47,596 nt of DNA from Candidatus Bipolaricaulota bacterium (lineage in GTDB: Bacteria > Bipolaricaulota > Bipolaricaulia > Bipolaricaulales > Bipolaricaulaceae): contig JACIWI010000112.1 in NCBI GenBank assembly GCA_014361055.1, positions 1 through 47,596 on the forward strand, in the 5' to 3' direction. Both the position numbers and the translations under genes were made by a program. Below the pieces are notes generated by a model, which saw nothing but the letters and a program-made list of their open reading frames with translations, was not told where the DNA came from and did no database searches. Numbering within the stretch: the first letter of the stretch is position 1; every line of letters begins with the position of its first letter. Of the stretch, positions 9,782 to 32,372 are shown one piece after another.

Positions 9782-10126
9782 GTGATCGCTTTCTACCTGG
9801 ATGCCCATGTTCCCCGGGCGATTGCCCTGGGGCTGCGCATGCGAAGGATAGACGTGTTAACCGCGCAAGAGGACGGAGCGGCTATGTTCTCTGATGTAGA
9901 GCTTTTGGATCGCGCGACCCATCTGGGCCGAGTCCTCTTCACCTTCGACGACGACCTCCTAGCGGAGGCGGCGAAGAGACAGCGTTTGGGGCAGCACTTT
10001 AGCGGTGTCGTTTACGCTCACCCTTTGCGGGGCACCATTGGGCAATGTGTTCACGATCTTGAGCTCGTGGCAAAAGCCGGTGAGCCTGAGGATTTGAGAA
10101 ACCAAGTTTTGTTCCTACCCCTTTGA
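9782..10126 (+). CDS. DUF5615 PIN-like protein, putative toxin
   Basis: This 114-residue protein starts with GTG and opens with FYLDAHVPRAIALGLR, the first acidic motif of the DUF5615 (Mut7-C/PIN-like) family. It continues with the central FTFDDDLLAEA stretch carrying further acidic residues. These proteins are predicted Mg-dependent RNases. The pair with DUF433 upstream is a common toxin-antitoxin arrangement. Activity has to be inferred from the family. The acidic residues all look intact, unlike the neighbouring HepT remnant. Confidence 0.75.
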   Translation: MIAFYLDAHVPRAIALGLRMRRIDVLTAQEDGAAMFSDVELLDRATHLGRVLFTFDDDLLAEAAKRQRLGQHFSGVVYAHPLRGTIGQCVHDLELVAKAGEPEDLRNQVLFLPL

Positions 10127-15698: not shown

Positions 15699-16289
15699 AT
15701 GCGGACGGGGGTGCGCGTTGTGCTGGCGGTGGGGGTTGTGCTTTCCACGGGTGCGCTGAGCGGTTGTTTCCTCAATGTGTTTCAGACGGCCCAGATCCTC
15801 CGGCATGGGGATGTGGCGTTCACGGTGGGGATGGCCGTGCTGGACCTGGCGCCAGCGGTTCTCACCCCCCAGGGGAGGTTGGCGGTGGGCCTGTCCGATG
15901 GGGTGGAGTTCGGGGTCCAGGCCGGGGGGATGGTCAACCCCGGCACCGGAGGGGTGGGGTTCCTCGGGGCAATAGCCGAGCTGAAGCTGTCGCTGGTGGA
16001 CCAGCCGGATGCGCTGGCCCTGGCCGTGGGGGTTGGGGGTGGGTGGAGCGTGATCATGGGCGGATGGGGGCTTCAGGCCTCCCTCTACCTTGACAGCAAC
16101 CTGTGGTTCCTCCCCCTGTACGTGGCGTACCGGCCGATCCTCCCCTTGGGGGCCGAGGAGTTTGCGCCCTTTCACCAGTTGGCAGGAGGCCTGTGCCTGG
16201 ACATTTCCGACAAGGCCCGGCTTCTCCTCGAGGCCGACTTCCTCGGGGGGCTTTGGAGCCCCGGGCTCGCCCTGGAAGTCCAGTTTTAA
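15699..16289 (+). CDS. Lipoprotein, possible outer-membrane barrel
   Basis: This 196-residue protein has a lipoprotein signal: a positively charged start, a hydrophobic stretch and the lipobox LSGC with the acylated cysteine near residue 23. The mature part is rich in short amphipathic strands and glycine (for example GVEFGVQAGGM and ALAVGVGGGWSVIMGGWG) and ends in phenylalanine (LEVQF), as many outer-membrane barrels do. TAGGGGG at 15685-15691 supports ATG 15699 over the one at 15681. The 3' end overlaps the end of the convergent xanthine dehydrogenase gene by 4 bases. No family is recognised. Confidence 0.7.
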   Translation: MRTGVRVVLAVGVVLSTGALSGCFLNVFQTAQILRHGDVAFTVGMAVLDLAPAVLTPQGRLAVGLSDGVEFGVQAGGMVNPGTGGVGFLGAIAELKLSLVDQPDALALAVGVGGGWSVIMGGWGLQASLYLDSNLWFLPLYVAYRPILPLGAEEFAPFHQLAGGLCLDISDKARLLLEADFLGGLWSPGLALEVQF

Positions 16290-18616
16290 CCCGTCCTACT
16301 GCGCAAGGCCGAGAGGACCCGCTCCGGGGTGAACGGGGCCCGGGTGAGGCGGATCCCCACCGCGTCGTAGATGGCGTTGGAGATGGCCGGCAAGGGCCCG
16401 TTGATCCCGACCTCGGCGATCGACTTCGCCCCAAACGGCCCGGTGGGCTCCTCGCTCGGGACCAGGATCGCCTCCACCTCGGGCACGTCCAGGGCCGAGG
16501 GGATCTTGTAGTCGAAGAAGCTTGGGTTTACGCACCGGCCGCGCCCGGAGAACAGCATCTCCTCGTAGAGGGCATGGCCGATCCCCTGGACGACAGCCCC
16601 CTCGAGCTGCCCCTCGGCCTGCTTGGGGTGGATGGCGACCCCGCAGTCGGCCACGGCCACGAACCGCTCCACCCGCACGAGCCCGGTCTCCGTGTCCACC
16701 GCCACCTCACAGAAGAACGCGGCGAACGGGGGCGGGGACTCAGGCGCGACGCAGGATGCGGTGGCCGCGATCTGGTGCTGGTCCACCACGTACGTCGCGC
16801 GGTGCCCCACGTCGGCCAGGGTCACCGCCCGCCCACTGCGCACGCTGCGCACGGCCCCTTGGGAGAGCTCCAGGTCCTCCGGAGCTTCCTCCAGCGCCGC
16901 TGCGGCCACGTCCAGGATCTGGCGCCGCACATCCTCCGCCGCCTTGAGGACCGCGAGCCCCGACACGTAGGTCGTGCTGGAGGCGTACGCCCCCACGTCG
17001 AACGGGGTGAAATCGGTGTCCGAGGAGTAGACAAGTACCTTGTCCACCGACACGCCCAGCGCCTCGGCGGCGATCTGGGCGAGCACGGTGTCGGAGCCGG
17101 TGCCGAGGTCGGTGGCCCCCACGAGGAGGCGGAACGAGCCGTCCTCGTTCATCACAATCGTCGCCGCGCCCATGTCGATCCCGGTGATCCCCGACCCCTG
17201 CATCGCGCACGCCATCCCCACCCCGTACGCCCACGGACCCTCGCGGCGTCGGCGGCCGCGGTTCCTCTTCCACCCGATGCGCTCGGCCCCGATCCGCAGG
17301 CACTCGGGAAGGGCACACGACCGTACGATCTGGGCCTTCCCTTCCCTCCCCTCCCCGATCTTCTCGAAGATGGGGGAGGTCTCCCCGACCCGGATGTGGT
17401 TCCGCTGGCGCAGCTCCAGGGGGTCCAGACCGAGCTTCTCGGCCAGGATGTCCATCGCCACCTCGAGGGCGAAGTAGCCTTGGGTGGCCCCGTACCCGCG
17501 GTACGCCCCGGCCACAGGGAGGTTGGTGTACACCGCCTTCCCATGGAACCGGAGGTGGCGGGCCTTGTTGTAGAGGGGCAGGGTCTTGGAGCCGACGTTT
17601 GAGAGCACGGTCAGGGAATGGGTCCCGTAGGCGCCGGTGTTGGACAGGGCTTCCATGTCGATGGCGCGAAGGGTCCCGTCCCGGCCAGCCCCCAGCTTCA
17701 CCGTGACCCGCATCGGGTGCCGGGTGCGGGAGGCGACGAATTCCTCCTCCCGGGTGTAGGCGATCCGCACCGGCCGCCCGGTGCGCAGGGCAAGGGCCCC
17801 GGCCACCGGCTCGAGGATGATCTCCTGCTTGGCCCCGAACCCCCCGCCGATCCGGGGTTTCACCACCCGGATCCTGGACATCGGGAGCGCGAGCACCCGG
17901 GCCACGATCCGCCGCACATGGAACGGAACTTGGGTCGAGGTACGGATGACGAGCCGGCCGTCCTCGTCGAAGTAGGCGATCACGCAGTGGGGTTCGATCG
18001 GGGTGTGCTGGAGGTAGGGGATCTCGCAGGTCGCTTCCGCCGTCACCGGGGACTCGGCCAGGGCCCGGTCCACGTCCCCGACCGGGATGTCCACCGCGGC
18101 GGCGATGTTGCGCTGGGCGTCGTAGATCCCCTCGGCATCGGGCTCGTCGTGGATGACCGGGGCCCCGGGGGCGAGGGCTTCGTCCACCGATAGGACCGCC
18201 GGCAGGACCTTGTACTCGACCCTGATCTTCCGCAGGGCCTCGTCGGCCGCCTCCTCGGAGGTCGCCGCCACCGCCGCCACCCGGTCCCCCACGTACCGGA
18301 CCTTCCGATCGAACAGGACCGTGTCGTACGGGGAGGGCTCCGGCCACCCCTGGCCGGCGGTGGTGTGGGGGATCCGCGGAACGTTCCCGAAGTGGAGGAT
18401 GCACGCCACCCCGGGGATAGCCTCTGCCGCGGAGGTGTCGATGGCCTCGATCATGGCGTGGGCGTGGGGGGAATGGAGGATCTTCCCCACCAAAGCCCCC
18501 GGCACGTCCATGTCCAGCGTGAACAGGGGCTTCCCACACACCAGGGCTGGCCCGTCCACCTTGTGCACATTCTGGCCCACCACGTCCCTGGCCTTCGCCG
18601 CCACGCTCACCGCCAT
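16286..18616 (-). CDS. xdhA: Xanthine dehydrogenase, molybdenum-binding subunit
   Basis: This 776-residue catalytic subunit binds the molybdopterin cofactor and hydroxylates purines or another N-heterocycle. The Q-loop is IGGGFGAKQ. The substrate-site arginine lies in AYRGYGATQGY (the usual AFRGFG). The MCD-binding GTGSDTVLAQIAAEALG and GPFGAKSIAEVG, with catalytic Glu E735, are present. The length is usual for the separate large subunit of trimeric enzymes. The ATG at 18616 overlaps the 2Fe-2S subunit gene by 10 bases. Gene order on the minus strand is FAD, 2Fe-2S, Mo. Xanthine is the likely substrate because of the nucleoside-type transporter beside it, but aldehyde or CO-dehydrogenase-like specificities share the fold. 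Confidence 0.9.
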   Translation of the reverse strand: MAVSVAAKARDVVGQNVHKVDGPALVCGKPLFTLDMDVPGALVGKILHSPHAHAMIEAIDTSAAEAIPGVACILHFGNVPRIPHTTAGQGWPEPSPYDTVLFDRKVRYVGDRVAAVAATSEEAADEALRKIRVEYKVLPAVLSVDEALAPGAPVIHDEPDAEGIYDAQRNIAAAVDIPVGDVDRALAESPVTAEATCEIPYLQHTPIEPHCVIAYFDEDGRLVIRTSTQVPFHVRRIVARVLALPMSRIRVVKPRIGGGFGAKQEIILEPVAGALALRTGRPVRIAYTREEEFVASRTRHPMRVTVKLGAGRDGTLRAIDMEALSNTGAYGTHSLTVLSNVGSKTLPLYNKARHLRFHGKAVYTNLPVAGAYRGYGATQGYFALEVAMDILAEKLGLDPLELRQRNHIRVGETSPIFEKIGEGREGKAQIVRSCALPECLRIGAERIGWKRNRGRRRREGPWAYGVGMACAMQGSGITGIDMGAATIVMNEDGSFRLLVGATDLGTGSDTVLAQIAAEALGVSVDKVLVYSSDTDFTPFDVGAYASSTTYVSGLAVLKAAEDVRRQILDVAAAALEEAPEDLELSQGAVRSVRSGRAVTLADVGHRATYVVDQHQIAATASCVAPESPPPFAAFFCEVAVDTETGLVRVERFVAVADCGVAIHPKQAEGQLEGAVVQGIGHALYEEMLFSGRGRCVNPSFFDYKIPSALDVPEVEAILVPSEEPTGPFGAKSIAEVGINGPLPAISNAIYDAVGIRLTRAPFTPERVLSALRSRTG

Positions 18617-19080
18617 CGCCCCTCCCGTTTCCACTCCGCCGCGAGCATCACCGCGTCCACGATCTTCCGGTACCCGGTGCACCGACACAGGTTCCCCACG
18701 ATCGCCGTCCGGACTTCCTCCGGGGTGGGATCCGGGTGGCGGGAGAGGAGCTCGTAGGCGACGAGGATCATCCCCGGGGTACAGAACCCGCATTGGACCG
18801 CCCCGGCATCGAGGAACGCCTCCTGAAGGGGATGAGGATCGTTCACCGTGCCTAAGCCCTCCAGGGTGATGATCCGCTTCCCCTGGGCCCGGGCGGCGAA
18901 GGCGATGCACGACCGCACCGCCCGTCCGTCCACGAGCACCGTGCACGCCCCGCAATCTCCGGTGCCGCACCCCTCCTTCACCGACTTCATCCCCAGCCGG
19001 CGGAGGAGCTGGAGCAGGGACTCCCCCGGCTCGACCTCCGGGTACTGGGGAACCCCGTTCAACTCAAAGTAGATCTTCAT
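18607..19080 (-). CDS. xdhC: Xanthine dehydrogenase, 2Fe-2S subunit
   Basis: This 157-residue subunit carries two 2Fe-2S clusters that pass electrons from molybdenum to FAD. The plant-ferredoxin-type cluster uses the cysteines of GCGTGDCGACTVLVDG (about residues 37-52). The second, four-helix cluster uses QCGFCTPGM (about 97-105) and NLCRCTGY (about 132-139). All eight ligands are present. Its ATG overlaps the stop of the FAD subunit gene (ATGA), and the molybdenum subunit starts inside its 3' end, so the three are translated as a coupled set. Confidence 0.93.
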   Translation of the reverse strand: MKIYFELNGVPQYPEVEPGESLLQLLRRLGMKSVKEGCGTGDCGACTVLVDGRAVRSCIAFAARAQGKRIITLEGLGTVNDPHPLQEAFLDAGAVQCGFCTPGMILVAYELLSRHPDPTPEEVRTAIVGNLCRCTGYRKIVDAVMLAAEWKREGRWR

Positions 19081-19934
19081 CGCGCGGCCCTCTCTGCGGC
19101 CCGGGCCACGGCGCGACGCACGACGACCCCCGCCACGCTCCGGCGCCAGGCGGCGCTCGCGCGGCGGTCGTCCCCCACCTTGGCCCGGCGCTCCACCTCC
19201 TCCTGGACCTGGCGCCAAAGGGTGTCGGAGGGGGCCTCCCCCTGGAGGGCCTCCTCGAGCCAGGTGAGGCGCTCGGCCCGGGCCGGGGTTGCCCCCACCG
19301 CCACCCGTGCCCACGCGATCTTTCCGTCCTGAATCCCTACCCCGCACGCGGCGTTGAGGAGGGCGATGTCCCCGGCGGAGCGGGAAAGCTTCTCGAACGC
19401 AAACGCCCCATTCCAGGGCGGAAGGGCGATCTCGGTCAACACCGCCCGGCGGAACACGGCCCGGAACGGCTGGCGGTAGAGCTCCTCTACCAGGGCGTGC
19501 TCCTCCCGCTCACCCTCCCAGCGCGCCTCGGCCCCCAGGGCGACGAGGGCGGTGGGGATGTCCGCCCACGGATGGGCGGAAACCACGGCCCCGCCCAAGG
19601 TGGCCATGTTCCGCAGCGGGGGAACCGCCACCCGACACAGCACCTCGACCAGGGCACCGTGCAGGTACCGCCGCGCCGCTGGGTGTTCCAGGATCTCGGT
19701 GAGGGTGGTCGTGGTCCCGATGCGCAGCCGCCCGTCCTCCTCCCGGACGTAGGAAAGGCCGATCCCCATGATGTCGATCAGCCCCTCGAGGTCGGTACGG
19801 GCGGAGCGGCCGAGATCCACCCCCCCGGCGAGGAGCGCTCCCCGGCCGTGGTAGGCGTCGAGGAGGGACAGCGCTTCCTCTACGTCCCGGGCCCAATGGA
19901 AACGACGGACCCCCGTCAGGCGCACGTCGGTCAC
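19077..19934 (-). CDS. xdhB: Xanthine dehydrogenase, FAD-binding subunit
   Basis: This 285-residue subunit takes electrons from the 2Fe-2S subunit and reduces NAD or ferredoxin. It has the pyrophosphate-binding loop ALLAGGVDLG (about residues 32-41), the second FAD motif NMATLGGAVVSAHPWAD (about residues 108-124), and the CO_deh_flav C-terminal domain. The usual AGGTDL has V for T. The GTG start at 19934 has no ribosome site but sits 7 bases after TATACT, so the operon is probably leaderless. It is the first gene of the trimeric XDH operon and diverges from the BMP transporter. Confidence 0.9.
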   Translation of the reverse strand: MTDVRLTGVRRFHWARDVEEALSLLDAYHGRGALLAGGVDLGRSARTDLEGLIDIMGIGLSYVREEDGRLRIGTTTTLTEILEHPAARRYLHGALVEVLCRVAVPPLRNMATLGGAVVSAHPWADIPTALVALGAEARWEGEREEHALVEELYRQPFRAVFRRAVLTEIALPPWNGAFAFEKLSRSAGDIALLNAACGVGIQDGKIAWARVAVGATPARAERLTWLEEALQGEAPSDTLWRQVQEEVERRAKVGDDRRASAAWRRSVAGVVVRRAVARAAERAAR

Positions 19935-19941: not shown

Positions 19942-19971
19942 AGTATAGCGCCCGGGCCACCTGTAAGGCAA
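19942..19971 (-). promoter_or_regulatory. Sigma-70 promoter of XDH operon (leaderless)
   Basis: On the minus strand: -35 TTGCCT (19971-19966), an 18-base spacer, -10 TATACT (19947-19942). The GTG start lies 7 bases downstream, about where transcription should begin. The -35 is one base away from the -35 of the divergent promoter. Confidence 0.75.
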
Positions 19972-19972
19972 C

Positions 19973-20002
19973 TTGACCGTTGTGGTGGCTCAACGGTATA
20001 CT
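19973..20002 (+). promoter_or_regulatory. Sigma-70 promoter of BMP transporter operon (leaderless)
   Basis: -35 TTGACC (19973-19978), an 18-base spacer, -10 TATACT (19997-20002). The ATG at 20012 is 9 bases further on with no ribosome site. The two divergent promoters would compete for polymerase, or one factor bound at the centre could control both. Confidence 0.78.
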
Positions 20003-20011
20003 GGCCGGGCC

Positions 20012-21580
20012 ATGGGTGGGTGTGCTGGAGTGGGTGTCCCAGGGCAAGGCCGTTCACCGCCCGTACCTACCGTTCTGCTCCAGGACATCACCAAGGCTTT
20101 CCCCGGGGTGCTGGCCAACGACCGGGTGACGTTGGAGCTCCGCGCGGGCGAGGTCCATGCCCTCCTCGGGGAGAACGGGGCCGGCAAGACTACGCTCATG
20201 AACATCCTCTACGGCCTCTACCGGCCGGACTCGGGCGAGATCCTCATCCGCGGCGTTCCCACTCAGATCCATTCTCCCCGCGATGCCATCGCCCACGGGA
20301 TCGGCATGGTCCACCAGCACTTCAAGCTCGTCTTCCCCCACACCGTGGCCGAGAACGTCGCCCTCGGCCTCAAGAGGACCCCGTTCTGGGCCCCGATCCG
20401 GGTCGTGGAGCGAAAACTGCGGGAACTGTCCGAACGCTATGGGCTCCCCGTGGACCCCGGAAGCCGGGTGTGGGAGCTCTCGGCCGGGGAGCAGCAGCGG
20501 GTGGAGATCCTCAAGGCCCTGTATCGGGGGGCAGAGATCCTCATCCTGGACGAGCCGACGAGCGTCCTCACCCCGCAGGAGGCGACCGAGCTGTTCAAGG
20601 TCCTCCTGCGGATGAAGGCCGAAGGGCACGTGGTGGTGTTCATCACGCACAAGCTCGGGGAGGTCATGGAGGTGGCGGACCGGGTGACGGTGATGCGCCG
20701 GGGGCGGGCGGTGGGGACGGTGGCGGTGGCGGGCACCGACAAGGCCGAGCTGGCGCGGATGATGGTCGGCCGCGAGGTCGTGTTCCGGCTTTCCAAGGGG
20801 AAGTGCATGCCCGGGGAGGAGGCGCTCCTCGTCCAGGACCTGTGGGCGAGGAACGACCGGGGGCTCCACGCGGTGCGGGGCGTGTCGCTCCGGGTGTGCC
20901 GGGGGGAGATCTTGGGGATCGCCGGCGTGGCCGGGAACGGCCAACGAGAGCTGGTGGAGACGATCACCGGCCTTCGGCGGGCGGAGCGGGGTCGGGTGGT
21001 GGTCCTGGGCCGGGACCTCACCAACCGTTCGGCGCGGGCGGTGGCCGACGTCGGGGTGGCCCACATCCCCGAGGAGCGATTGCGGATGGGGATCGTCCCG
21101 GGGATGGCGGTGGAGGATAACCTGATCCTCAAGCGGCATCACCGGCCGCCGTTCTCATGGGGGCCGTTCCTCCGGTTGCGCGAGGTGCGGCGGTTCGCCC
21201 AAGAGTCCATCGTGGGGTACGACATTATGACCCCCGCGGCGCGCGCCCCGGCCAAGCTCCTCTCGGGGGGGAACATCCAGAAGCTGATCCTGGCCCGGGA
21301 GCTCTCCGGAGAGCCTGGGCTGATCGTGGCCGCCCACCCCACCTACGGCCTCGACGTGGGGGCCACGGAACAGGTGCGGCGCTACCTCCTCGGGGGGCGG
21401 GAGAAGGGGGTGGGGGTGCTCCTCGTCTCGGAGGACCTGGAGGAGATCATGGAGCTTTCGGACCGGATCGCGGTCATGTTCCGGGGGGAGATCATGGGCG
21501 TGGTTCCGGCGGCGGAGGCGAATCTCGAGGAGATCGGGCTGATGATGGCCGGCGAGCGCCGGCTGGCACCGCAGCCATGA
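20012..21580 (+). CDS. Nucleoside-type ABC transporter, double ATPase subunit
   Basis: This 522-residue cytoplasmic protein has two ABC ATPase domains in tandem, as in the YufO/NupO and sugar MglA-type importers. Domain 1 has Walker A GENGAGKTT, signature LSAGEQQRVE and Walker B ILILDEPTSVLTPQE. Domain 2 has a degenerate Walker A (GVAGNGQREL lacks GKT), signature LSGGNIQK and an altered Walker B (LIVAAHPTYGLDVGA), so only domain 1 should hydrolyse ATP efficiently. The first ~25 residues are extra and glycine-rich. Start 20012 was chosen for its leaderless promoter; a TTG at 19973 lies inside the -35 element. ATGA overlap with the first permease. Confidence 0.9.
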   Translation: MGGCAGVGVPGQGRSPPVPTVLLQDITKAFPGVLANDRVTLELRAGEVHALLGENGAGKTTLMNILYGLYRPDSGEILIRGVPTQIHSPRDAIAHGIGMVHQHFKLVFPHTVAENVALGLKRTPFWAPIRVVERKLRELSERYGLPVDPGSRVWELSAGEQQRVEILKALYRGAEILILDEPTSVLTPQEATELFKVLLRMKAEGHVVVFITHKLGEVMEVADRVTVMRRGRAVGTVAVAGTDKAELARMMVGREVVFRLSKGKCMPGEEALLVQDLWARNDRGLHAVRGVSLRVCRGEILGIAGVAGNGQRELVETITGLRRAERGRVVVLGRDLTNRSARAVADVGVAHIPEERLRMGIVPGMAVEDNLILKRHHRPPFSWGPFLRLREVRRFAQESIVGYDIMTPAARAPAKLLSGGNIQKLILARELSGEPGLIVAAHPTYGLDVGATEQVRRYLLGGREKGVGVLLVSEDLEEIMELSDRIAVMFRGEIMGVVPAAEANLEEIGLMMAGERRLAPQP

Positions 21581-22692
21581 GGCGCGTCGGGCCCTTGCTC
21601 GTGGAACGCCGGATCACCCCGCCCCGCTCGGCGGTGATCGGGGTGTCGGCATTGGCGGTGGTGATCGCCCTCCTGGTGGCGGCGATCATCTTCTGGGGGT
21701 ACGGGGTCAGCCCGTGGCAGGCCTACGCTGCCATCGCCCGGGGCACGGTGGGTAGCCGGGACGGGATCAACGAGATCCTGCGCCGGTCGCTTCCCCTCAT
21801 CCTGTGCGGGGTCGGGTTGACCCTGGCGTTCCGCGCCCAGTTCTGGAACATCGGCGCCGAGGGGCAGCTCCTCGCCGGGGCGGTGGCGGCGACCGGGGTT
21901 GCCCTGTTCGCCCCGCTCCCTGGGCCGTGGTTATTGCTGGCGATGTTCGCGGCCGGGTTCCTTGCCGGGGGGGCCTGGGGGATCGTGCCCGCCCTTCTGC
22001 GGGCCAAGCTCCACGTCAACGAAGTGATCTCCACCCTGATGATGAACTACATCATGATCTACATCGTGGAGTGGCTGATCCACGGGCCGTGGAAAGGGGC
22101 CACCATGCGGGGATTTGCGTACTCCGACTTCTTTCCCGCCGCCGCGCGCCTCCCGTGGATCCCGGGGAGCCGCGTCCACTGGCCAACGCTGGTGATCGGC
22201 GTGGCCGCAGCAGTGGCGGTGGCGCTGATCCTGGCGCGGACGCGCCTCGGATACGAGATCCGGGTGGTGGGCCAGAGCACCGACGCCGCCCGATATGCGG
22301 GCATCGACTTCCTGCGGGTGATCGCGTGGGCGATGTTCCTGTCCGGGGGCCTGGCGGCGCTGGCTGGGGTCGGGGAGGTGGCCGGGGTCCACTTCCGCCT
22401 GCGCAGCCCGACCCACATTTCCATGGGCTACGGGTACACCGCGATCATCGTCGCGTGGCTGGCTCGGGGGAGCCCGCTCGCCGCGGTGTTCACCGCGCTC
22501 CTCTTTGGCCTCATCTTCGCGGCCGGGGACGTGATCAAGGTGGCCCTCAGGATGCCGTTCCAGATCACGGGCGTGTTCAACGGGCTCATCCTGTTTTTCT
22601 TGATCGGAAGCGAAATGCTGATGTACTGGCGGGTGCGGCTTGCCCCGAAGGGGGAACGGTGGACTGGCAGAGCTGGCTCATCGGAACGGTAA
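21577..22692 (+). CDS. Nucleoside-type ABC permease 1 (YufP/NupP-like)
   Basis: This 371-residue inner-membrane protein belongs to the BPD_transp_2 family used with BMP binding proteins. Conserved stretches are FWNIGAEGQLLAG (about residues 88-100), KLHVNEVISTLMMNYI (about 144-159), and RYAGIDFLRVIAWAMFLSGGLAALAGV, the cytoplasmic loop that touches the ATPase. The ATG overlaps the ATPase stop. Its own 3' end overlaps the second permease by 34 bases. The NEVI(S/V)TLMMNYI motif is typical of nucleoside importers. Confidence 0.9.
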   Translation: MRRVGPLLVERRITPPRSAVIGVSALAVVIALLVAAIIFWGYGVSPWQAYAAIARGTVGSRDGINEILRRSLPLILCGVGLTLAFRAQFWNIGAEGQLLAGAVAATGVALFAPLPGPWLLLAMFAAGFLAGGAWGIVPALLRAKLHVNEVISTLMMNYIMIYIVEWLIHGPWKGATMRGFAYSDFFPAAARLPWIPGSRVHWPTLVIGVAAAVAVALILARTRLGYEIRVVGQSTDAARYAGIDFLRVIAWAMFLSGGLAALAGVGEVAGVHFRLRSPTHISMGYGYTAIIVAWLARGSPLAAVFTALLFGLIFAAGDVIKVALRMPFQITGVFNGLILFFLIGSEMLMYWRVRLAPKGERWTGRAGSSER

Positions 22693-23588
22693 GCCGGGCG
22701 CTGGCGTTTGGGACGCCCCTCCTGTGGGGAACGCTTGGGGAGATCTACACCGAGCGGGCCGGGGTGGTGAACCTCGGCGTGGAGGGGATGATGATCCTCG
22801 GGGCATTCTCCGCGTTCGCTGTTGCCCAGACCACCGGCCATCCTGGGCTAGGGGTGCTGATCGCGGCGGTGGTGGGCGGTGCGGCGGCTGTCCTCCACGC
22901 GTTCCTCACCGTGACCCTGCGCGCCAACCAGTACGTGTCCGGGCTGGCCCTGAGCCTGTTCGGCCTTGGGCTGGCCGGCCTCCTCGGTCGGGGGTGGGAG
23001 GGGATCCCGCTTCGCCAGCCCCTCCCCAACGTGACCATCCCCGGGCTTTCCAGGATCCCCGTGCTCGGGCCGATGCTGTTCCAGGGGCAGAGCGTGCTCA
23101 CCTATGCCGGGCTCTTCTTGGCCGTGGTGTTGTGGGTTCTCCTCTACCGCACCCGGTGGGGGATCAGCGTCCGGTCGGTGGGGGAGTCGCCGTCCACTGC
23201 AGACGCACTGGGGGTCAACGTGTTCCTGGTGCGCTACCTGTGTGTAGGCTTCGGCGGGCTCCTCGCCGGGGTGGCGGGGGGGTTTCTCTCGGTGGCGTAC
23301 CGGCCGGCGTGGACGGAGGGGATGACCGCAGGCATGGGCTGGATCGTGATCGCCCTCACCATCTTCGCCGCCTGGGATCCCCTTCAGGCAGTGTGGGGGG
23401 CGTTCTTGTTCGGGGGCCTCTACCACCTCTCGTTCCGGCTGCAGGAGTTCGTGGCCCCCGAGCTCCTCAAGCTCATGCCCTACGCGTTCGCTATACTGGT
23501 GTTGGCCCTTACTGGGCTTGGTAAGGCCCGCCGGCGGTGGGGTGCCCCCGGCGCGTTGGGGTTGCCCTACACCCGCGGCGAGCGGTGA
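22659..23588 (+). CDS. Nucleoside-type ABC permease 2 (YufQ/NupQ-like)
   Basis: This 309-residue permease completes the channel. It shows GTPLLWGTLGEIYTERAGVV near the start, NLGVEGMMILGAFSA, and RANQYVSGLALSLFGLGLAGLLGR, all usual in the smaller permease of BMP systems. The GTG at 22659 has AAGGGGGAACG before it and lies inside the preceding gene. It ends 71 bases before the binding protein. The family transports purine and pyrimidine nucleosides or nucleobases in the characterised examples. Confidence 0.9.
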   Translation: MDWQSWLIGTVSRALAFGTPLLWGTLGEIYTERAGVVNLGVEGMMILGAFSAFAVAQTTGHPGLGVLIAAVVGGAAAVLHAFLTVTLRANQYVSGLALSLFGLGLAGLLGRGWEGIPLRQPLPNVTIPGLSRIPVLGPMLFQGQSVLTYAGLFLAVVLWVLLYRTRWGISVRSVGESPSTADALGVNVFLVRYLCVGFGGLLAGVAGGFLSVAYRPAWTEGMTAGMGWIVIALTIFAAWDPLQAVWGAFLFGGLYHLSFRLQEFVAPELLKLMPYAFAILVLALTGLGKARRRWGAPGALGLPYTRGER

Positions 23589-23659
23589 CGGGAGGTGAGA
23601 GCAGGCGGTAGATGGCTCGGGGTGCGATCGATGATCCATTCTCGCAAGGAGGTGTGCGC

Positions 23660-24811
23660 ATGAGGCTAGTGCGGTTGGTGGCGGCGGTGATGGTGGCGAC
23701 GGCGGTCCTGGGCGCGGTGGGCTTTGCCCAGGCGAAGCTCAAGGTGGGGTTCATCTACGTGGGCCCGATCGGCGACTACGGGTGGAGCCACGCCCACAAC
23801 CTGGGGCGCCTGATCGTGGAGCGGGACCTCGGGGTGGAGACAGTGTACGTGGAGTCCGTGCCCGAAGGGGAGGTGGAGACGTACATCGATCAGCTGGTCC
23901 GTCAGGGGTGTAACGTCATTTTCACCACCAGCTTCGGGTTCATGGACGGGACGCTGGCTGCTGCTCAGCGCTACCCGAACGTGATCTTCGCCCACTGCTC
24001 CGGGTTCAAGCGGGCCCCGAACCTGGCCACGTACATGGCCGACTTCTACCAGGTGTACTACCTGAACGGGCTCATGGCCGGGGCCCTCACCAAGACCGGC
24101 AAGGTCGGGTACGTGGGGGCGTTCCCGATCCCTGAGGTGAAGCGGCACATCAGCGCGTTTACGATCGGGGTGCGCGAGGTGAACCCTAACGCCACGGTGC
24201 ACGTGCGCTGGATCTACGAGTGGTTCAACCCGGCCGCGGCCAAGGAGGCCACCGAGGCCCTGATCGCCGAGGGGTGCGATGTGTTCGCGTTCACTGAGGA
24301 CTCCCCGACCGTGGTCCAGGTGGCGGCGGAGAAGGGGTTCCCGTCCTTCGGCCACTATTCCCCGATGTACGACTTCGCCCCGAACCACGTGGTGTCCGGG
24401 CAGATCGTGCACTGGGAGGAGATCTACGTCGACTTCCTCGGCAAGGTGAAGGCCGGGGAGTACACGGCGAAGAACCTGGCCAACGTGGACTACTGGTGGC
24501 TCCTCTCCCAGAAGGCGGTGGAGCTCGGGGCTAAGTCCGGCATGCCCGTCAACCCTGTGTTCGAGGGCGCGCTTAAGGCCTACATCGTCGACCACCCGGT
24601 CTTCGGGAGGATCTCCGTTTACGATCTTGTGTTCGTTCGCTTGGCGCAGATGGGCAATCCGGGGATCACGTTCGATCCGTTTGAGGGACCTGTGTACGAC
24701 CGGAAGGGTGGCCTCCAGGTCCCCGCAGGCCACTGGATGTCGTACGACGCCCTGATCACCATGGAGTGGGCGGTGGAGGGCGTGGTCGGCCCGTGGCCAG
24801 GTGAGCCGTAG
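23660..24811 (+). CDS. BMP family substrate-binding protein
   Basis: This 383-residue exported protein captures the substrate for the transporter. It has a Sec signal peptide (MRLVRLVAAVMVATAVLGAVG, cut near FAQA) without a lipobox, so it is periplasmic or externally held rather than a lipoprotein like PnrA. The mature part begins KLKVGFIYVGPIGDYGWSHAH, the conserved BMP opening with the substrate-contact Asp-Tyr-Gly-Trp. Later come KTGKVGYVGAFPIPEVKRHI and EDSPTVVQVA. A strong AAGGAGGTG ribosome site supports a high expression level. Close relatives include xanthine/purine-utilising BMP proteins, which fits the neighbouring XDH genes. Confidence 0.9.
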   Translation: MRLVRLVAAVMVATAVLGAVGFAQAKLKVGFIYVGPIGDYGWSHAHNLGRLIVERDLGVETVYVESVPEGEVETYIDQLVRQGCNVIFTTSFGFMDGTLAAAQRYPNVIFAHCSGFKRAPNLATYMADFYQVYYLNGLMAGALTKTGKVGYVGAFPIPEVKRHISAFTIGVREVNPNATVHVRWIYEWFNPAAAKEATEALIAEGCDVFAFTEDSPTVVQVAAEKGFPSFGHYSPMYDFAPNHVVSGQIVHWEEIYVDFLGKVKAGEYTAKNLANVDYWWLLSQKAVELGAKSGMPVNPVFEGALKAYIVDHPVFGRISVYDLVFVRLAQMGNPGITFDPFEGPVYDRKGGLQVPAGHWMSYDALITMEWAVEGVVGPWPGEP

Positions 24812-24917: not shown

Positions 24918-26237
24918 ATGGCGTTGATCATCGAGCGGGCGAGGATCGCGGACTTCTTCGGGACCTTCCACGAGTCGGGGTACGTGCTGATCGACGGCGG
25001 GCGGATCGAGGTGGTGGGCCCAGACCCGGCCCCGGCCGCTCCCGGGGCCCAGCGGATCGACGCCGGCGGTCGCCTCCTCACCCCCGGGCTCGTCAACGCC
25101 CACGCTCACCTGTACTCGTCCCTTGCCCGGGGGATGCCCCTCCCCGGGTTTGCCCCGAAGGGCTTCCGCCAAATCCTCGAGCAGCTCTGGTGGCGGGTGG
25201 ATCGGGCCCTCGACCTGGACGGGGTGTACCACTCCGCCCTCGTCGGGGCGCTCCAGCAGCTCAAGGCCGGGGTCACGGCGTTCTTCGACCATCACGCTTC
25301 CCCGACGGCGATCGCTGGGTCGCTGTCCCAGATCCGGCGGGCGGTGGCGGAGGTGGGCCTGCGCGCGGACCTCTGCTACGAGGTCACCGACCGCGGGGGG
25401 CCGGCGGAGCGGGACGCCGGGATCGCCGAGAACGTGCGGTTCGCCCAAGAAGAAGCCGGGGGCGGCCGGTTTGCCGCCCACATGGGCCTTCACGCCTCGT
25501 TTACCCTGTCCGACGAGACCCTCGCCAAGGTGGTTTCTGCTGCCGAGCCGCAGAAGCTCCCGTTCCACCTCCACCTCGCCGAGGGGAAAGAGGACCCGGT
25601 GGACGCCCTCCAGAAGTACGGGATGCGCACCGCGGAGCGGCTGGACCAATTCGGGATCTTCACCCCGGGGACCCTCCTCGCCCACGGGATCCAGCTCGCC
25701 CAGGCCGAGCTCGACCTCCTCGCTGGGCGGTCGGCGAGCGTAATCCACAACCCCCGGTCGAACATGAACAACGCCGTGGGCGTGGCCCAGGTGGCGGCGA
25801 TGCTCGCCCGCGGGATCAATGTGGGGATCGGTACGGACGGGTTCGGATGCGACATGGTCGGCGAGCTCCTCACCGCCCGCCTCCTCGCCCACCACACAAG
25901 CGGCGATCCCACCGTGCTCGGGGATCCGGCCCTGCTCTCCTTGATCCGTCACAACTATGCCCTTGCGGAAGCGTCGTTTGGCGTGCCCATGGGGCGGCTC
26001 GCCGCCGGGTGTGCGGCCGACCTCGTGGTGTGGAACTACGAGCCGCCAACCCCGCTTGTGCCGGAGAACCTCCTTGCGCACCTCCTGTTCGCCTCCGTCT
26101 CCGAGGGGCTCCGGCCCCGGGTGGTGATCGTGGCCGGGGAGGTCCGGTTCGCGGACGGCAAGGTTCAGGGCGTGGACGAACGGGCGGCCCTCGCTCGGGC
26201 CCGCGAGGTCGCCCAGAAGCTGTGGGCCAGGTTGTAG
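24918..26237 (+). CDS. ssnA: SsnA-like amidohydrolase
   Basis: This 439-residue metal-dependent hydrolase of the amidohydrolase/TRZ family resembles SsnA, found in purine-degradation clusters with YgfK and XDH. Metal ligands are visible: NAHAHLY near residue 60 for the HxH pair, HLHLAEG near 218 for the third His, LLAHGIQL near 254, and GTDGFG near 300 for the Asp. Family members deaminate or hydrolyse purine-like rings (guanine deaminase and related), but SsnA itself has no settled reaction. The gene appears to have its own leaderless promoter and is followed by a repeat-rich spacer and ygfK. Confidence 0.87.
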   Translation: MALIIERARIADFFGTFHESGYVLIDGGRIEVVGPDPAPAAPGAQRIDAGGRLLTPGLVNAHAHLYSSLARGMPLPGFAPKGFRQILEQLWWRVDRALDLDGVYHSALVGALQQLKAGVTAFFDHHASPTAIAGSLSQIRRAVAEVGLRADLCYEVTDRGGPAERDAGIAENVRFAQEEAGGGRFAAHMGLHASFTLSDETLAKVVSAAEPQKLPFHLHLAEGKEDPVDALQKYGMRTAERLDQFGIFTPGTLLAHGIQLAQAELDLLAGRSASVIHNPRSNMNNAVGVAQVAAMLARGINVGIGTDGFGCDMVGELLTARLLAHHTSGDPTVLGDPALLSLIRHNYALAEASFGVPMGRLAAGCAADLVVWNYEPPTPLVPENLLAHLLFASVSEGLRPRVVIVAGEVRFADGKVQGVDERAALARAREVAQKLWARL

Positions 26238-26457: not shown

Positions 26458-29400
26458 ATGTCGGACAAGATGAGGGTGCAGCCGTTCGACGTCCTCCTCG
26501 ATTGGATGCTCGGGGAGCTTGAGCACAGCGGCTCCATCTTCGGCATCCACCGGTCTCTTTTCTATGCGCCCCGGAAGGATGCCCCGTACGCGAGCGAGGT
26601 GTTCGGCCACCGCCTCGGGACCCCCATCGGCCCCGCGGCCGGGCCTCATACTCAGCTCGCCCAGAACATCGTCTCGGCCTGGCTCTGCGGGGCGCGGTTC
26701 ATCGAGCTCAAGACGGTCCAAGTTCTGGACGAGCTTGCGATTCCCCGGCCGTGCATCGACATGGAGGACGAGGGGTACAACGTGGAGTGGTCCCAGGAGC
26801 TCAAGCTCGAGGAGTCCGCCCGCGAGTACATCCACGCCTGGGCCCTGATCCACGTCCTGCGCTCACGCCTCGGGTTCGATGACGTGCCGCTCGGCACAAT
26901 CTTCAACATGAGCGTCGGCTACAACCTCGCGGGGATCCAGAGCCCGCCCATGACCCGCTTTCTGGATCGGCTGCAGGACGCGTCCGCGGAAGTGGCGGAG
27001 ATCCGGGACACCTTGCGTCGGCGGTTCCCCCAGTTCGCCGACGTCGAGATCCCCTGCCGGATCACGGACAACGTCACCCTGTCCACCATGCACGGGTGTC
27101 CCTCGGACGAGATCGAGCGGATCGCGCGCTTCCTCCTCGAAGAGCGTGGGTTGCACACGTTCATCAAGCTCAACCCGACCTTGCTTGGCAAGGACGAGGT
27201 GATGCGCATCCTCCACGACCGCCTCGGCTACCGCGAGATCGACATCCCCGACCGGGTGTTCGCGCACGACCTGGAGTACCCCCGGGCGGTGGCGTTGATC
27301 AGGACCCTTCAGAAGGTCGCTTCCGAGCGTGGCCTCTCGTTCGGCGTGAAGCTCAGCAACACCCTGGCCATGGCCAACCACAAACGGGTTCTCCCCGGCG
27401 ACGAGGTGTACATGTCCGGCCGCGCCCTCTATCCCATCACCATGAACCTGTTCCGGAAGCTGGCCCAGGACTTCGACGGGGATCTCGCCGTGTCCTACTC
27501 CGCCGGCGCCGACGCCCACAACCTCACGACGATCCTCGCCTGCGGTGCCCGGCCCGTCACCGCCGCCACCGACCTCCTCAAGCCCGGCGGCTACGCCCGG
27601 TTCCTGCAGTGGCTCGAGGTCCTCGAAGCGGAGATGCGCGCCCGGGGCGTGGCCAGCCTGGACGAACTTGCCCAAGATAGGCTTGCCAACCTGGACCGGG
27701 CCGCCGCCGATGCGCTTGCGAACCCGCGCTACAAGAAGGGCTACTTCCCGTATGGGCTCCCCAAGGTGGAATCGGGGCTGGATCTGTTCGACTGCATCGC
27801 CGCCCCATGTGTGGAGAAGTGCCCCGTCCGCCAGGACGTGCCCGAGTACGCGTGGTGGGTTGCCCACGGGGAGTACGGCCGGGCCCTCGCGGTGATCCTC
27901 GGTCGGAATCCCTTGCCCGCCGTGACCGGGCACGTGTGCACGGCAGCTTGCCGGACCCGCTGCACCCGCAATGGCTACGAGGAGCCGGTGGCGATCCGCG
28001 CCCTGAAGCGGTTCGCCGTGGAGAAAGGACAGTCACAGCTCACAACGCATAAGCCGCCCCAGACGAAGGGAAGGGTGGCGATCGTGGGGAGTGGGCCGTC
28101 CGGCCTCGCCGCCGCCTACTTCCTGGCGCTAGCTGGGGTCCAGGTCACGATCTTCGAGGCGCAGGACGTCCCGGGAGGGATGCTCGCCCTCGCCCCCCAG
28201 TTTCGGCTCCCGCGGGAGGCGGTGGCGGCGGACATCGCGCGGATCAAAGGACTGGGGGTGGAGATCCGGCTCTCCACCCCCATCACCCGCCCCCCGGAGG
28301 CGCTCCTTGCGGACGGCTTCGCCGCGGTCTACGTGGCGTGCGGGTTCCAGCGGGACGCGCGCCTCGGGATTGAGGGCGAGGACGGCGGGGGCGTGTTCGG
28401 CGCCCTCGACTTCCTGCGCCGGCTGAGCCGGGGAGAACGACCGGACCTGGGGTCGAGGGTGCTCGTCATCGGCGGTGGCAACACCGCGATGGACGCGGCC
28501 CGGGCCGCCCGGCGCCTCACCGGGCGGCCGGCCACGGTGGTCTACCGGCGGACCCGGGCCGAGATGCCGGCCGAAGCGGAGGAGATCGAGGAGCTCCTCG
28601 CCGAAGGCAACGTCCTCCTGGAGCTCGTCAGCCCGGAGCGGATCGTCCTCAAGGACGGACGGGTGGCGGCACTCCAGTGCGTGCGCAACGCGCTGGGCGA
28701 GCCGGGGCCCGATGGGCGCCGGCGGCCGGTGCCCATCGCGGGAAGCGCGTTCCAGATCGAGGCCGATGCCATCATCGTCGCCGTCGGCCAGCGCCCGGAC
28801 CTCGCCTTCCTCGCCGGGAGCGGGATCTCCCTGCGTGGGGACGGGAGGATCGCCGTCGACTCCGACACCGGGCGGGCGGCGGAGCACGTGTACGCCGGTG
28901 GGGATGCGGTCCGGGGACCGGCGACCATCGTCGAGGCCTGCGCCGACGGGCGCCGGGCGGCAGAGGCGATCTCGCGGGAGCTCGGCATCGCGTTCCGGAC
29001 GTGGCCGGCTCGGCCGGTGGCCCTTTCGGAGGCGGACATCCTGGAGGTCAAACGGGCCCGCGCCCGTAAGGAGCCCCAGCATCGGCCGGCGCTGCTCCCG
29101 GTGGAGGAACGCGAGGGCTTCGCTCTCGTGGAGCAGACGCTGGTCGAGGACGAGGCCCGTCGGGAGGCGGTCCGGTGCCTCCAGTGCTCGACCTTGTGCG
29201 ACAAGTGCGTCGAGGTTTGCCCGAACCGGGCCAACCATGTCTACACCGTGGACCCCGTGAGCTGGGCCGTGCCCCGCTTGAGCTGCCAGAAGGGCAAGCT
29301 GGTCGTGGCCGGGACGGAGCCGTTCCGCATCGAACAGTCCCGGCAGATCGTCCACGTGGACGACTTCTGCAACGCGTGCGGCAACTGTGCCACGTTCTGC

Positions 29401-29739
29401 GTGCACCACGGGAAGCCTTACCTCGATAAGCCACGGCTGTTCCTCTCGGAGCGCGACTTCGAGCAAGAATCGGACAACGCCTTCCACATCGAGGGGAACA
29501 CGATCCGGCGGCGGGAAGGGGGCGAGGAAGCGCGCCTGGAGGTCAAGGACGGCGCGCTGATCTTTGCGGACGCGCACGTCCGGGTGCGGTTCGCCCCCGA
29601 TTTCAGGATCGAGGGGATGACGTTGAAGGCAGGGTTTCCCGGGATGCGTTCCCTGAGGCCGGCGGCGGAGATGGCGGTCCTGCTCCGGAGCGTTCGGAAT
29701 TCGCTCCCGTTCCTGCTCGGCACCGGCAAGCGTGGCTGA
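26458..29739 (+). CDS. ygfK: YgfK-like FAD/Fe-S oxidoreductase
   Basis: This 1093-residue multi-domain protein matches the YgfK ('selenate reductase subunit') family. Residues 1-430 form a dihydropyrimidine/dihydroorotate-dehydrogenase-like barrel, with GPAAGPHTQLAQNIVSAWL and IELKTVQ. Residues ~451-520 are a GltD-type Fe-S region beginning CVEKCPVRQ. Two Rossmann folds follow: FAD-binding VGSGPSGLAAAYF near 544 and NAD(P)H-binding VIGGGNTAMDAARAA near 668. The C-terminus has Fe-S motifs CLQCSTLCDKCVEVCP near 907 and CNACGNCATFC near 971. YgfK genes occur with ssnA and xdh in purine fermenters, where they may reduce an N-heterocycle or pass electrons. The order ssnA-ygfK-XDH subunits is kept here. 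Confidence 0.9.
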   Translation: MSDKMRVQPFDVLLDWMLGELEHSGSIFGIHRSLFYAPRKDAPYASEVFGHRLGTPIGPAAGPHTQLAQNIVSAWLCGARFIELKTVQVLDELAIPRPCIDMEDEGYNVEWSQELKLEESAREYIHAWALIHVLRSRLGFDDVPLGTIFNMSVGYNLAGIQSPPMTRFLDRLQDASAEVAEIRDTLRRRFPQFADVEIPCRITDNVTLSTMHGCPSDEIERIARFLLEERGLHTFIKLNPTLLGKDEVMRILHDRLGYREIDIPDRVFAHDLEYPRAVALIRTLQKVASERGLSFGVKLSNTLAMANHKRVLPGDEVYMSGRALYPITMNLFRKLAQDFDGDLAVSYSAGADAHNLTTILACGARPVTAATDLLKPGGYARFLQWLEVLEAEMRARGVASLDELAQDRLANLDRAAADALANPRYKKGYFPYGLPKVESGLDLFDCIAAPCVEKCPVRQDVPEYAWWVAHGEYGRALAVILGRNPLPAVTGHVCTAACRTRCTRNGYEEPVAIRALKRFAVEKGQSQLTTHKPPQTKGRVAIVGSGPSGLAAAYFLALAGVQVTIFEAQDVPGGMLALAPQFRLPREAVAADIARIKGLGVEIRLSTPITRPPEALLADGFAAVYVACGFQRDARLGIEGEDGGGVFGALDFLRRLSRGERPDLGSRVLVIGGGNTAMDAARAARRLTGRPATVVYRRTRAEMPAEAEEIEELLAEGNVLLELVSPERIVLKDGRVAALQCVRNALGEPGPDGRRRPVPIAGSAFQIEADAIIVAVGQRPDLAFLAGSGISLRGDGRIAVDSDTGRAAEHVYAGGDAVRGPATIVEACADGRRAAEAISRELGIAFRTWPARPVALSEADILEVKRARARKEPQHRPALLPVEEREGFALVEQTLVEDEARREAVRCLQCSTLCDKCVEVCPNRANHVYTVDPVSWAVPRLSCQKGKLVVAGTEPFRIEQSRQIVHVDDFCNACGNCATFCVHHGKPYLDKPRLFLSERDFEQESDNAFHIEGNTIRRREGGEEARLEVKDGALIFADAHVRVRFAPDFRIEGMTLKAGFPGMRSLRPAAEMAVLLRSVRNSLPFLLGTGKRG

Positions 29740-29829
29740 CCCACCCGGCGAACACAGCCTGACCGGAAGCCTGAGGGTGTCATGGTTATCCCCATCGGTA
29801 CCTCTGTGTACGGATGTGTGTTTCCTCGC

Positions 29830-29911: not shown

Positions 29912-31159
29912 ATGGGTGAGCCGATCGCGTTCCGCTGTGTCTCCTGTGGCCGAGAGTACGACCCGTGGTCGGTGGACTACGCCTGCCCCCGGTGCGGGCC
30001 CTTGAGCGGGACGCTGGAGGTGCTCTACGACTACCGGGCCCTGGCCAGGCGCCTTGTCCCCGGGAGCTTCGCCGAGACGCGGCGGAACTCGCTGTGGCGG
30101 TACGAGGAACTCCTCCCGGTGGGGGTGGAGTACGCGGTGCCCCTGCGGCCGGGGTGGACCCCGCTCTACGAGAGCCCGACTTTGGCCGCCGAGCTCGGCC
30201 TTGGGGCGCTGTGGATCAAGGACGACACCCTCAACCCCACTGCCTCCTGCAAGGATCGGGGCACGGCGGTGGCGGTGGCCGCGGCGAGGAAGCTTGGTCG
30301 GGATGCATGCGCCTGCGCCTCCACCGGGAATGCGGCCACGTCCCTCGCCGGGTTCTGCGCTGCGGCCGGGATCCCCTGCTACATCTTCGTTCCCAAGAAC
30401 GCCCCCCGTCCCAAGGTCGCTCAGCTCCTCGCGTTCGGGGCGATGGTGTTCGTCGTGGATGGCACCTACGACGAGGCCTATGAGCTCGCGATCCAAGCTG
30501 CAGACCGGTTTGGGTGGTACAACCGCTCCGATGGGTGGAACCCGATGGTGGTGGAGGGGAACAAGACCGGGGCCCTCGAGGTGTGGGAGCAGATCGGCGA
30601 GGCCTCCCTGGACTTCGCCCTGGTGGCCGCAGGGGATGGGTCGGTGGTGTCCGGGGTCTGCAAGGGGTTCCAGGAGCTGGTGAAGGTGGGGCTGGCCGAC
30701 CGGGTGCCCCGGGTGTACGGGGTGCAGGCGGCCGGGGCAGCGGCCATCGCCCATGCCTTTGAGCGCCACGAACAGGGCCGGCCGATCCTCCCCGCGGAGG
30801 AGGGGGCGGACACGGTGGCCGACTCGATCCGGGTGGGGAAGCCACGCGACGTGGTGAAGGCGGTGCGCTACGTGGCCGCCACCGGCGGTGGGTTTGTCAC
30901 CGTGACCGACGACGAGATCGTGTCCGGGGCCCAGGAGCTGGCCCGCCGGGCCGGGGTGTTCGCCGAGCCAGCCGGGGCCGCCCCCTGGGCCGGGCTCGTC
31001 CGGCTCCTGCGCGAAGGGGCCGTGCCGGAAGGGGCGAAGGTGGTCTTGTTCATCACCGGGTCTGGGCTTAAGGACCCGGAGGGGGCGCTGAGAGGGCTTC
31101 CCGAGCCCACCCTGATCCCGCCGCGGATCGAGGCGGTGGCGGAGGCGGTGGGCGGATGA
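29912..31159 (+). CDS. Threonine synthase-like PLP enzyme
   Basis: This 415-residue fold-type II PLP enzyme opens with a zinc-ribbon (CVSCGREY...CPRCGP, residues 10-30), as in many threonine synthases. The PLP lysine is in NPTASCKDRG (about residues 110-119; the common form is NPTGSFKDRG). The PLP-phosphate loop is ASTGNAATS, and the C-terminal FITGSGLKD closes the site. Sequence type favours threonine synthase, which makes threonine from phosphohomoserine. The surroundings (ygfK before; XDH 2Fe-2S subunit overlapping by ATGA after) suggest instead a catabolic role like the diaminopropionate ammonia-lyase YgeX found in related clusters. Neither thrA nor thrB is near. Confidence 0.8.
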   Translation: MGEPIAFRCVSCGREYDPWSVDYACPRCGPLSGTLEVLYDYRALARRLVPGSFAETRRNSLWRYEELLPVGVEYAVPLRPGWTPLYESPTLAAELGLGALWIKDDTLNPTASCKDRGTAVAVAAARKLGRDACACASTGNAATSLAGFCAAAGIPCYIFVPKNAPRPKVAQLLAFGAMVFVVDGTYDEAYELAIQAADRFGWYNRSDGWNPMVVEGNKTGALEVWEQIGEASLDFALVAAGDGSVVSGVCKGFQELVKVGLADRVPRVYGVQAAGAAAIAHAFERHEQGRPILPAEEGADTVADSIRVGKPRDVVKAVRYVAATGGGFVTVTDDEIVSGAQELARRAGVFAEPAGAAPWAGLVRLLREGAVPEGAKVVLFITGSGLKDPEGALRGLPEPTLIPPRIEAVAEAVGG

Positions 31160-31623
31160 GGATCCAGTTTCGACTGAACGGGCGTCCGGTGGCGGTGGAC
31201 GTGCCGCCGGGGCGCCGCCTCCTCGACCTCCTGCGCGAGGACCTGGGCCTGATCGGGACCAAGGAGGGATGCGGGGAGGGGGAATGCGGGGCGTGCACGG
31301 TGGTGGTGGACGGGAAGCCCCGCCTGGCCTGCCTCACCGCCGCCGTCCAGGTGGAGGGGAAGGACGTCCTGACCATTGAGGGCTTGAGCGAGGCCGGCCA
31401 GCTGGATCCTCTGCAGGAGGCGTTCATCGAGACGGCAGGCGTGCAATGCGGGTTCTGCACGCCGGGTCTCGTCATGGCCGCGTACGCCCTCCTCCGGGAG
31501 AACCCACGCCCGACGCGGGATGAGGTGCGGGCGTATCTTTCCGGCAACCTATGTCGGTGCACCGGGTACGCGCAGGTGGTGGAGGCGGTGCTGCGGGCGG
31601 CGGAGAAGGCCTGCCCCCGGTGA
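31156..31623 (+). CDS. Xanthine dehydrogenase-type 2Fe-2S subunit (second copy)
   Basis: This 155-residue subunit has all eight cluster cysteines: GCGEGECGACTVVVDG (about residues 37-52), then QCGFCTPGL and NLCRCTGY. It overlaps the PLP enzyme stop (ATGA) and the MocA-like start (GTGA), so it is embedded in a translationally coupled run. It differs clearly from the first copy at 18607. No molybdenum subunit is next to it, so it must either pair with the XdhA at 16286, with a gene outside the window, or with an enzyme such as YgfK. Confidence 0.9.
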   Translation: MRIQFRLNGRPVAVDVPPGRRLLDLLREDLGLIGTKEGCGEGECGACTVVVDGKPRLACLTAAVQVEGKDVLTIEGLSEAGQLDPLQEAFIETAGVQCGFCTPGLVMAAYALLRENPRPTRDEVRAYLSGNLCRCTGYAQVVEAVLRAAEKACPR

Positions 31624-32246
31624 CCGGGGTCGTGCTCGCCGCCGGGGCCGGCCGCCGGATGACCTCCCCCGGGCCCAAACTCCTTTTGCCCCTGAACGGA
31701 TGGCCAATCCTGGCCTGGGTTTTGGAGCTAGTGGAGCGCTTGCCCCTCGCGGAGCGGGTGCTCGTCCTCGGGGCCGATGCCCAAGCGATCCGTCAAGCGT
31801 TGTTTCCCCCTCACCCCGGCCCTCTCCCGCAAGGGGGAGAGGGCGGAGGGAGGTGGCGGATCGTGATCAACGAGGATTGGCACGAGGGGATCGGGGCCTC
31901 GCTCAGGCGAGCGGCGGAGGAGGTGGAGGGAGGGATGCTCCTGTTCCTTGGGGACATGCCGTGGGTGCCGGAGGCCGGGGCACGGGCCGTGCTCGCGCGG
32001 GTCGGGGACCGGCCGGTGGCGCTCTCCTACCGTGGGCAGCGGGGGTTCCCGGTGTACCTTCCCCCTTCGCTCAGGCCGGGGCTTCTCGCGCTGGCGGGCG
32101 ATGTGGGCGCCCGGTGGCTCCTCTCCGACTGTGAGCTGATCCCGTGGGACGACCCCGGGGTGATCCGGGACGTGGACGTGGCCGACGACCTGGGGCAACC
32201 TCGACCAACGGCGGGCATAAAGCCCGACGCTACGGAAGGATCGTAG
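31620..32246 (+). CDS. MocA/MobA-like molybdopterin nucleotidyltransferase
   Basis: This 208-residue protein should attach CMP (or GMP) to molybdopterin for XDH-type enzymes. The nucleotide loop is VVLAAGAGRRM; PKLLLPL carries the conserved lysine; FLGDMPWVP gives the Mg-binding Asp; GFPVYLPP and LAGDVGARWLL complete the MocA pattern. The GTG start overlaps the 2Fe-2S gene by 4 bases. Residues ~62-78 (FPPHPGPLPQGGEGGGR) come from a palindromic repeat inserted in frame, and the last ~12 residues (PTAGIKPDATEGS) come from another repeat family, so the protein carries two repeat-derived segments. The insertion sits in a surface loop position. Confidence 0.83.
   Translation: MTGVVLAAGAGRRMTSPGPKLLLPLNGWPILAWVLELVERLPLAERVLVLGADAQAIRQALFPPHPGPLPQGGEGGGRWRIVINEDWHEGIGASLRRAAEEVEGGMLLFLGDMPWVPEAGARAVLARVGDRPVALSYRGQRGFPVYLPPSLRPGLLALAGDVGARWLLSDCELIPWDDPGVIRDVDVADDLGQPRPTAGIKPDATEGS
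31806..31844. repeat. Palindromic repeat inside the MocA-like gene
   Basis: GCCCTCTCCC (31819-31828) pairs perfectly with GGGAGAGGGC (31835-31844), preceded by CCCCCTCACCCCG. Read in frame it gives the HPGPLPQGGEG peptide seen wherever this dispersed repeat enters genes. The element at 14856-14897 is a second copy in reverse orientation. Confidence 0.85.
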
Positions 32247-32313
32247 CGTCGCAGCTTGTCTGCGACGGCGTTTTTCCCTTGGACCGGCGTCGGGGGCAAG
32301 TCCCGCCGCTACG
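32210..32313. repeat. Cluster of palindromic repeats (CGTAGCGTCG family)
   Basis: Three units: GCGGGCATAAAGCCCGACGC (32210-32229, ending CTACG), CGTAGCGTCGCAGCTTG then TCTGCGACG (32242-32267), and CGTCGGGGGCAAGTCCCGCC (32288-32307, ending GCTACG). They share the CGTAGC edges with the units at 26271-26445. The stop codon of the MocA-like gene lies inside the first unit. Confidence 0.75.
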
Positions 32314-32372
32314 AAACCGCGGGGGTCGTCGGACCTTGGGTCTGACGTCAAGCCGTTGCGAGGTGATGTGGG

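Follow-up and report, generated by a model that had tools for sequence, protein, structure and literature searches.

Back-to-back divergent promoters that share one operator are classically known from bioA/bioB with BirA and from tetA/tetR. Divergent operons are also controlled by GntR regulators of the FadR subfamily, for which Suvorova et al. 2015 (PMC4494728) describe the consensus GTM-N0-1-KAC and single sites that, in the divergons covered there, tend toward a position mid-way between the genes. A longer form of the FadR consensus, TNGTNNNACNA, has also been published (PMC2230225). A cluster for the reductive degradation of uric acid, comprising YgfK, SsnA, HyuA, YgeW, YgeY and YgeX, was recently described (PMC12507026); that paper names no regulator, and our literature search found no GntR regulator of anaerobic urate or xanthine genes.

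The stretch of DNA analysed here (the window, 47,596 nucleotides) is contig C16 of a Bipolaricaulota MAG whose assembly of 1.56 Mb is divided among 150 contigs, and its named relatives are Candidatus Bipolaricaulota/Acetothermia MAGs. We consider it likely that an 18-bp element in the window has two roles, providing the -35 boxes for a pair of divergent promoters and acting as the operator of a distant FadR-type regulator (GntR HTH plus FCD), probably for their joint repression. With bioA/bioB (BirA) and tetA/tetR this arrangement would share one repressor site lying across two divergent promoters, but it differs from them in regulator family and pathway, and here the -35 boxes themselves make up much of the predicted operator. 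Like the FadR-subfamily divergons (PMC4494728), it would pair a GntR HTH plus FCD protein with a GTMNKAC-type core palindrome, and it has a single site between divergent operons plus a site at the regulator's own gene. Unlike those divergons as that study describes them, the putative operator is fused with -35 boxes one base apart, the candidate regulator is encoded elsewhere, and the predicted regulon is purine/urate degradation.

Divergent promoters and the genes they serve

The junction separates the genes of a xanthine-dehydrogenase-type (XDH-type) enzyme from those of a BMP-type (nucleoside-like) ABC transporter. Minus-strand genes encode an xdhB-like FAD subunit (19080..19925), an xdhC-like [2Fe-2S] subunit (18610..19083) and an xdhA-like molybdenum subunit (16286..18637). 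The plus strand carries the transporter ATPase (20012..21580), two permeases (21577..23588) and the BMP-type substrate-binding protein (23612..24811), followed by an SsnA-type amidohydrolase (24918..26237) and a YgfK-type reductase (26458..29739), both above their NCBIfam cut-offs. The co-conserved cluster is completed, at 29912..33227 on the plus strand, by genes for a PALP enzyme, another [2Fe-2S] subunit, a MocA-like protein and another FAD subunit. The gene layout around the junction is maintained across most of the family, and the occurrence of SsnA together with YgfK marks the reductive uric-acid degradation pathway (PMC12507026).

Several features of the surrounding DNA were observed in addition. 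The second XDH-type [2Fe-2S] and FAD subunits lie with the MocA-like gene at 31156-33227 with no second molybdenum subunit adjacent to them, and they may pair with a common xdhA. Within 29820-29850, about 75 nt ahead of the PALP gene, a TATACT lies in an intergenic gap of 170 bp and suggests an internal promoter of the urate operon. The first part of the window (1-10000) has a G+C of 0.54-0.60, against 0.63-0.71 elsewhere in the window, and is possibly acquired DNA.

The promoter of xdhBCA on the minus strand consists of a -35 box TTGCCT (19971-19966), an 18-nt spacer and a -10 box TATACT (19947-19942), while the promoter of the transporter/urate operon on the plus strand consists of TTGACC (19973-19978), again an 18-nt spacer, and TATACT (19997-20002). 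Base 19972 is the sole base between the two -35 boxes. The boxes, the spacers and the one-base gap had all been called in a sequence-only reading of this DNA, and each was found where that reading placed it; these are real divergent promoters. Sigma70-like sites are scarce in sequence with a G+C of ~67%, and between 15 and 25 kb the search returned exactly these two promoters against 0.7 expected. No other back-to-back promoter pair was found in the whole window, and 60 first-order Markov copies of it contained none.

The same reading took both genes to be leaderless, which holds on the transporter side only. There the ATG lies 9 nt past the -10 box in the window and 5-10 nt past it in nearly all relatives, without a Shine-Dalgarno sequence, and the gene is leaderless. 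On the minus side a GTG (19934) occurs 7 nt past the -10 box and could provide an alternative leaderless start, but it most likely belongs to a Shine-Dalgarno sequence, AGGTGA (19936-19931), serving a GTG at 19925, which is probably the start of xdhB. In most genomes GGTGA or AGGAGG is found 5-10 nt past the -10 box on the xdhB side and is followed by a conserved start, and in two genomes (G015 and G020) a GTG at the position first proposed would meet an in-frame TGA. Given these Shine-Dalgarno sequences and in-frame stops in relatives, xdhB probably has a short leader.

Conservation of the element beyond the -35 boxes

The conserved element, CTGTAAGGCAACTTGACC (19961..19978), includes both -35 boxes. 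Its core, CTGTAAGGCAA (minus strand TTGCCTTACAG; 19961-19971), contains the minus -35 box, and the plus -35 box would form the right arm of the operator. In comparisons across the family the form CTGTMAGRCAACTTGACM is kept with the one-base gap in 28 genomes from 11 genera, the gap being a single base in every case. Ten of the 18 positions are invariant, with a genus-weighted information of 2.0 bits, and most of the remaining positions are two-letter. Around this block the spacers drift in length (17, 18 or 19) and mostly carry less than 1 bit, near random, and the -10 boxes vary among TATACT, TATAGT, TATATT and TATAAT. Of 28 relatives, 27 have TTGACA or TTGACC as the plus -35 box.

These data bear on whether two divergent promoters have simply been pushed together, with the -35 boxes alone conserved and control left to polymerase exclusion or global signals rather than to a dedicated regulator. 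Real -35 and -10 boxes are present on both strands and retained in relatives, and no regulator gene adjoins them, as that reading would have it. Conservation nevertheless exceeds the -35 boxes: a conserved TGTM lies within the minus spacer, external to either box, and the minus -35 box is held at the non-consensus hexamer TTGYCT in 27 of 28 genomes and is never TTGACA. The TGTM and the fixed TTGYCT together go beyond what plain promoter conservation predicts, and a second copy of the site, described below, is found at a GntR gene without serving as a -35 box there. We regard control without a dedicated regulator as distinctly unlikely. Since the conserved letters outside the boxes and the second copy are both left unaccounted for by it, polymerase exclusion alone is insufficient; mutual exclusion of the two polymerases, which the sequence-only reading put forward, is physically plausible and may coexist with an operator.

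The element also persists where the genes around it have changed. It is retained with a swapped plus-side partner in three genomes, namely ssnA in G011 and an adenine-deaminase-type gene in G023 and G036, and in G013 and G019 it lies between two ABC systems, XDH having been relocated. In the latter two genomes (L094 and L095) the element has an additional ABC transporter of like type on its other side, facing the first, and XDH is now in the operon of this additional transporter. The one plus-side exception to the conservation of the promoters is G010: no purine partner was recognised there, the plus -10 box is lost and the plus -35 box reads TTGGCG, yet TGTAAGACAACTTG is intact. With this exception, the check proposed in the sequence-only reading, whether relatives conserve both boxes and the one-base gap, is passed in the 28 genomes.

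Nitrogen control by GlnR and TnrA acts through boxes of the consensus TGTNA-N7-TNACA, and the element in several relatives spells TGTAAGACAACTTGACA, which agrees with it. Although the element occurs in most of the family, just 8 of 37 relatives have a MerR-type protein; no MerR-family regulator was found in the window's own genome, and the general pattern shows no clear enrichment relative to its reversed control. On the grounds of this mismatched distribution and lack of clear enrichment, we rejected a GlnR/TnrA-type box as a highly improbable explanation.

A second site at a GntR/FCD gene

Genome-wide pattern searches returned essentially two exact matches per genome, one at the XDH junction and the other just upstream of a GntR-family gene that is divergent from a PALP gene. 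Beyond these two sites the searches gave only a few stray one-mismatch matches as signs of a wider regulon. The operon of the GntR gene includes carbamate kinase and carbamoyltransferases, as well as YgeY in G015. The encoded protein has an N-terminal GntR winged helix (PF00392, 71.4 bits, cut-off 27) and a C-terminal FCD effector domain (PF07729, 87 bits, cut-off 24.3), and its relatives in the PDB include PdhR, NanR and FadR, the first two of which are repressors. The promoter of the regulator gene itself, for example TTGACC-17-TATCAT, lies upstream of the site, which starts 1-2 bases past the -10 box. With a -35 and -10 box already placed upstream, the TTGACA arm does not act as a -35 box there, and operator and promoter signals are thus separated at this locus.

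A matrix built from the regulator-gene sites alone, with the tested genus excluded, was applied to 17 stretches of 9-48 kb. The XDH element ranked first in 14 of the 17, both with a 21-mer matrix (pseudocount 2) and with a 13-mer core matrix. The window's own site ranked 8 of ~47,600 positions with the 21-mer and 1 with the 13-mer, and with a very small pseudocount it fell outside the window's top four. A further match at 37486 falls inside an ORF and was taken as chance.

The core also resembles published FadR sites. In most genera it reads GTCTTAC or GTCTGAC and agrees with GTM-N0-1-KAC, and the minus-strand core TTGYCTKACAG fits the longer consensus in all but its last base. The window's core, GCCTTAC, has one mismatch to GTMNKAC (GC for GT), which adds one further mismatch to the longer form and places it among the weaker sites. 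The palindrome can be read in two overlapping registers 8 bp apart, which leaves its register ambiguous.

Two further observations concern the regulator locus. Ahead of the regulator gene (L131-L152), a conserved ATGCTANCAT resembles a pair of overlapping, divergently oriented -10 boxes, one for the regulator and one for the PALP gene; in one genus it forms a perfect palindrome. In another family of the class, TGTCAGACAAATTGACA occurs upstream of a PALP-GntR gene pair (L128 2329; G044:C44:3828), which suggests that the pairing of regulator and operator predates the family.

The sequence-only reading had proposed that the two promoters might be jointly controlled by one event, although no regulator gene was nearby. 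The core's match to the site at a GntR/FCD gene bears out the first proposal in spirit. As to the second, no regulator gene is adjacent, and none was recognised beside the purine cluster in the neighbourhoods of 16 relatives, where unlabelled ORFs were only partly identified, but the matching site points to the involvement of a regulator encoded at a distance. Two genomes with the element, G011 and G036, gave no clear regulator orthologue, and both are incomplete. The regulator gene is likewise absent from the assembly of the window's own genome (G000), whose best GntR match (39%) looks like a paralogue; the sister species (G001) has the orthologue, at L161 4712-5428. Contig C98 of the window's genome matches the sister's regulator locus at 93% and stops inside the PALP gene (L161:4341), ~370 bp short of the regulator gene, and the far flank is on C31. 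The absence is therefore probably due to an assembly gap between C98 and C31.

A predicted operator for anaerobic purine degradation

In the model we propose, the regulator would be encoded at the distant locus and probably be autoregulated through the second site, which closely follows the -10 box of the regulator gene. Because the core spans the whole xdh -35 box and lies one base off the transporter -35 box, a dimer bound there would presumably obstruct the two of them; it would most likely cover both boxes and exclude both polymerases. A metabolite of the purine/urate pathway would release the regulator, and the resulting derepression would turn on uptake, the oxidation of xanthine and the reductive steps of urate breakdown (SsnA and YgfK) together. 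We infer binding by the regulator, its action as a repressor instead of an activator, the ligand and any mutual exclusion of polymerases; repression and release by a metabolite are suggested by the regulator family and the geometry of the sites.

The same GntR protein could instead bind the junction and activate one promoter or both. Transcription is predicted to start near 19935 on the minus strand and at 20009-20012 on the plus strand, which puts the centre of the core at roughly -31 and -44, respectively, and FadR-type regulators are reported to activate at some sites (PMC2230225); both would suit activation. The site overlaps both -35 boxes and its counterpart at the regulator gene lies just downstream of the -10 box, geometries that we take to be typical of repression, and activation seems to us unlikely, if conceivable. 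Joint repression from a shared operator is the reading carried forward here.

The predicted system can be set beside the described reductive uric-acid cluster (PMC12507026). SsnA and YgfK, encoded in the window, are common to both, as are YgeY (from G015) and carbamate kinase, whose genes lie at the regulator locus in relatives; all four score above curated cut-offs. The carbamoyltransferases match YgeW below its cut-off, and the PALP enzymes allow no assignment to YgeX. Unlike the cluster as published, the Bipolaricaulota genes come with BMP-type ABC uptake and a proposed dedicated GntR regulator.

The junction is a real and conserved feature that is now largely explained as a predicted divergon of the FadR type whose operator is fused and unusually compact. 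We think it reasonably probable, though less firmly than the operator assignment itself, that the two sites make up a regulon in which one GntR/FCD protein serves the entire anaerobic purine/urate pathway of the Bipolaricaulota, its operator and the -35 boxes being fused, inseparable in evolution and carried with the pathway through rearrangements. Two promoter hexamers would here serve as an operator as well, a strict example of such dual use that is kept family-wide. In a phylum that is uncultured and lacks genetics, the junction offers concrete and testable candidates for the regulator and operator of the reductive urate pathway, itself described only recently, and with them a lead toward the regulator of anaerobic purine degradation in the Bipolaricaulota.
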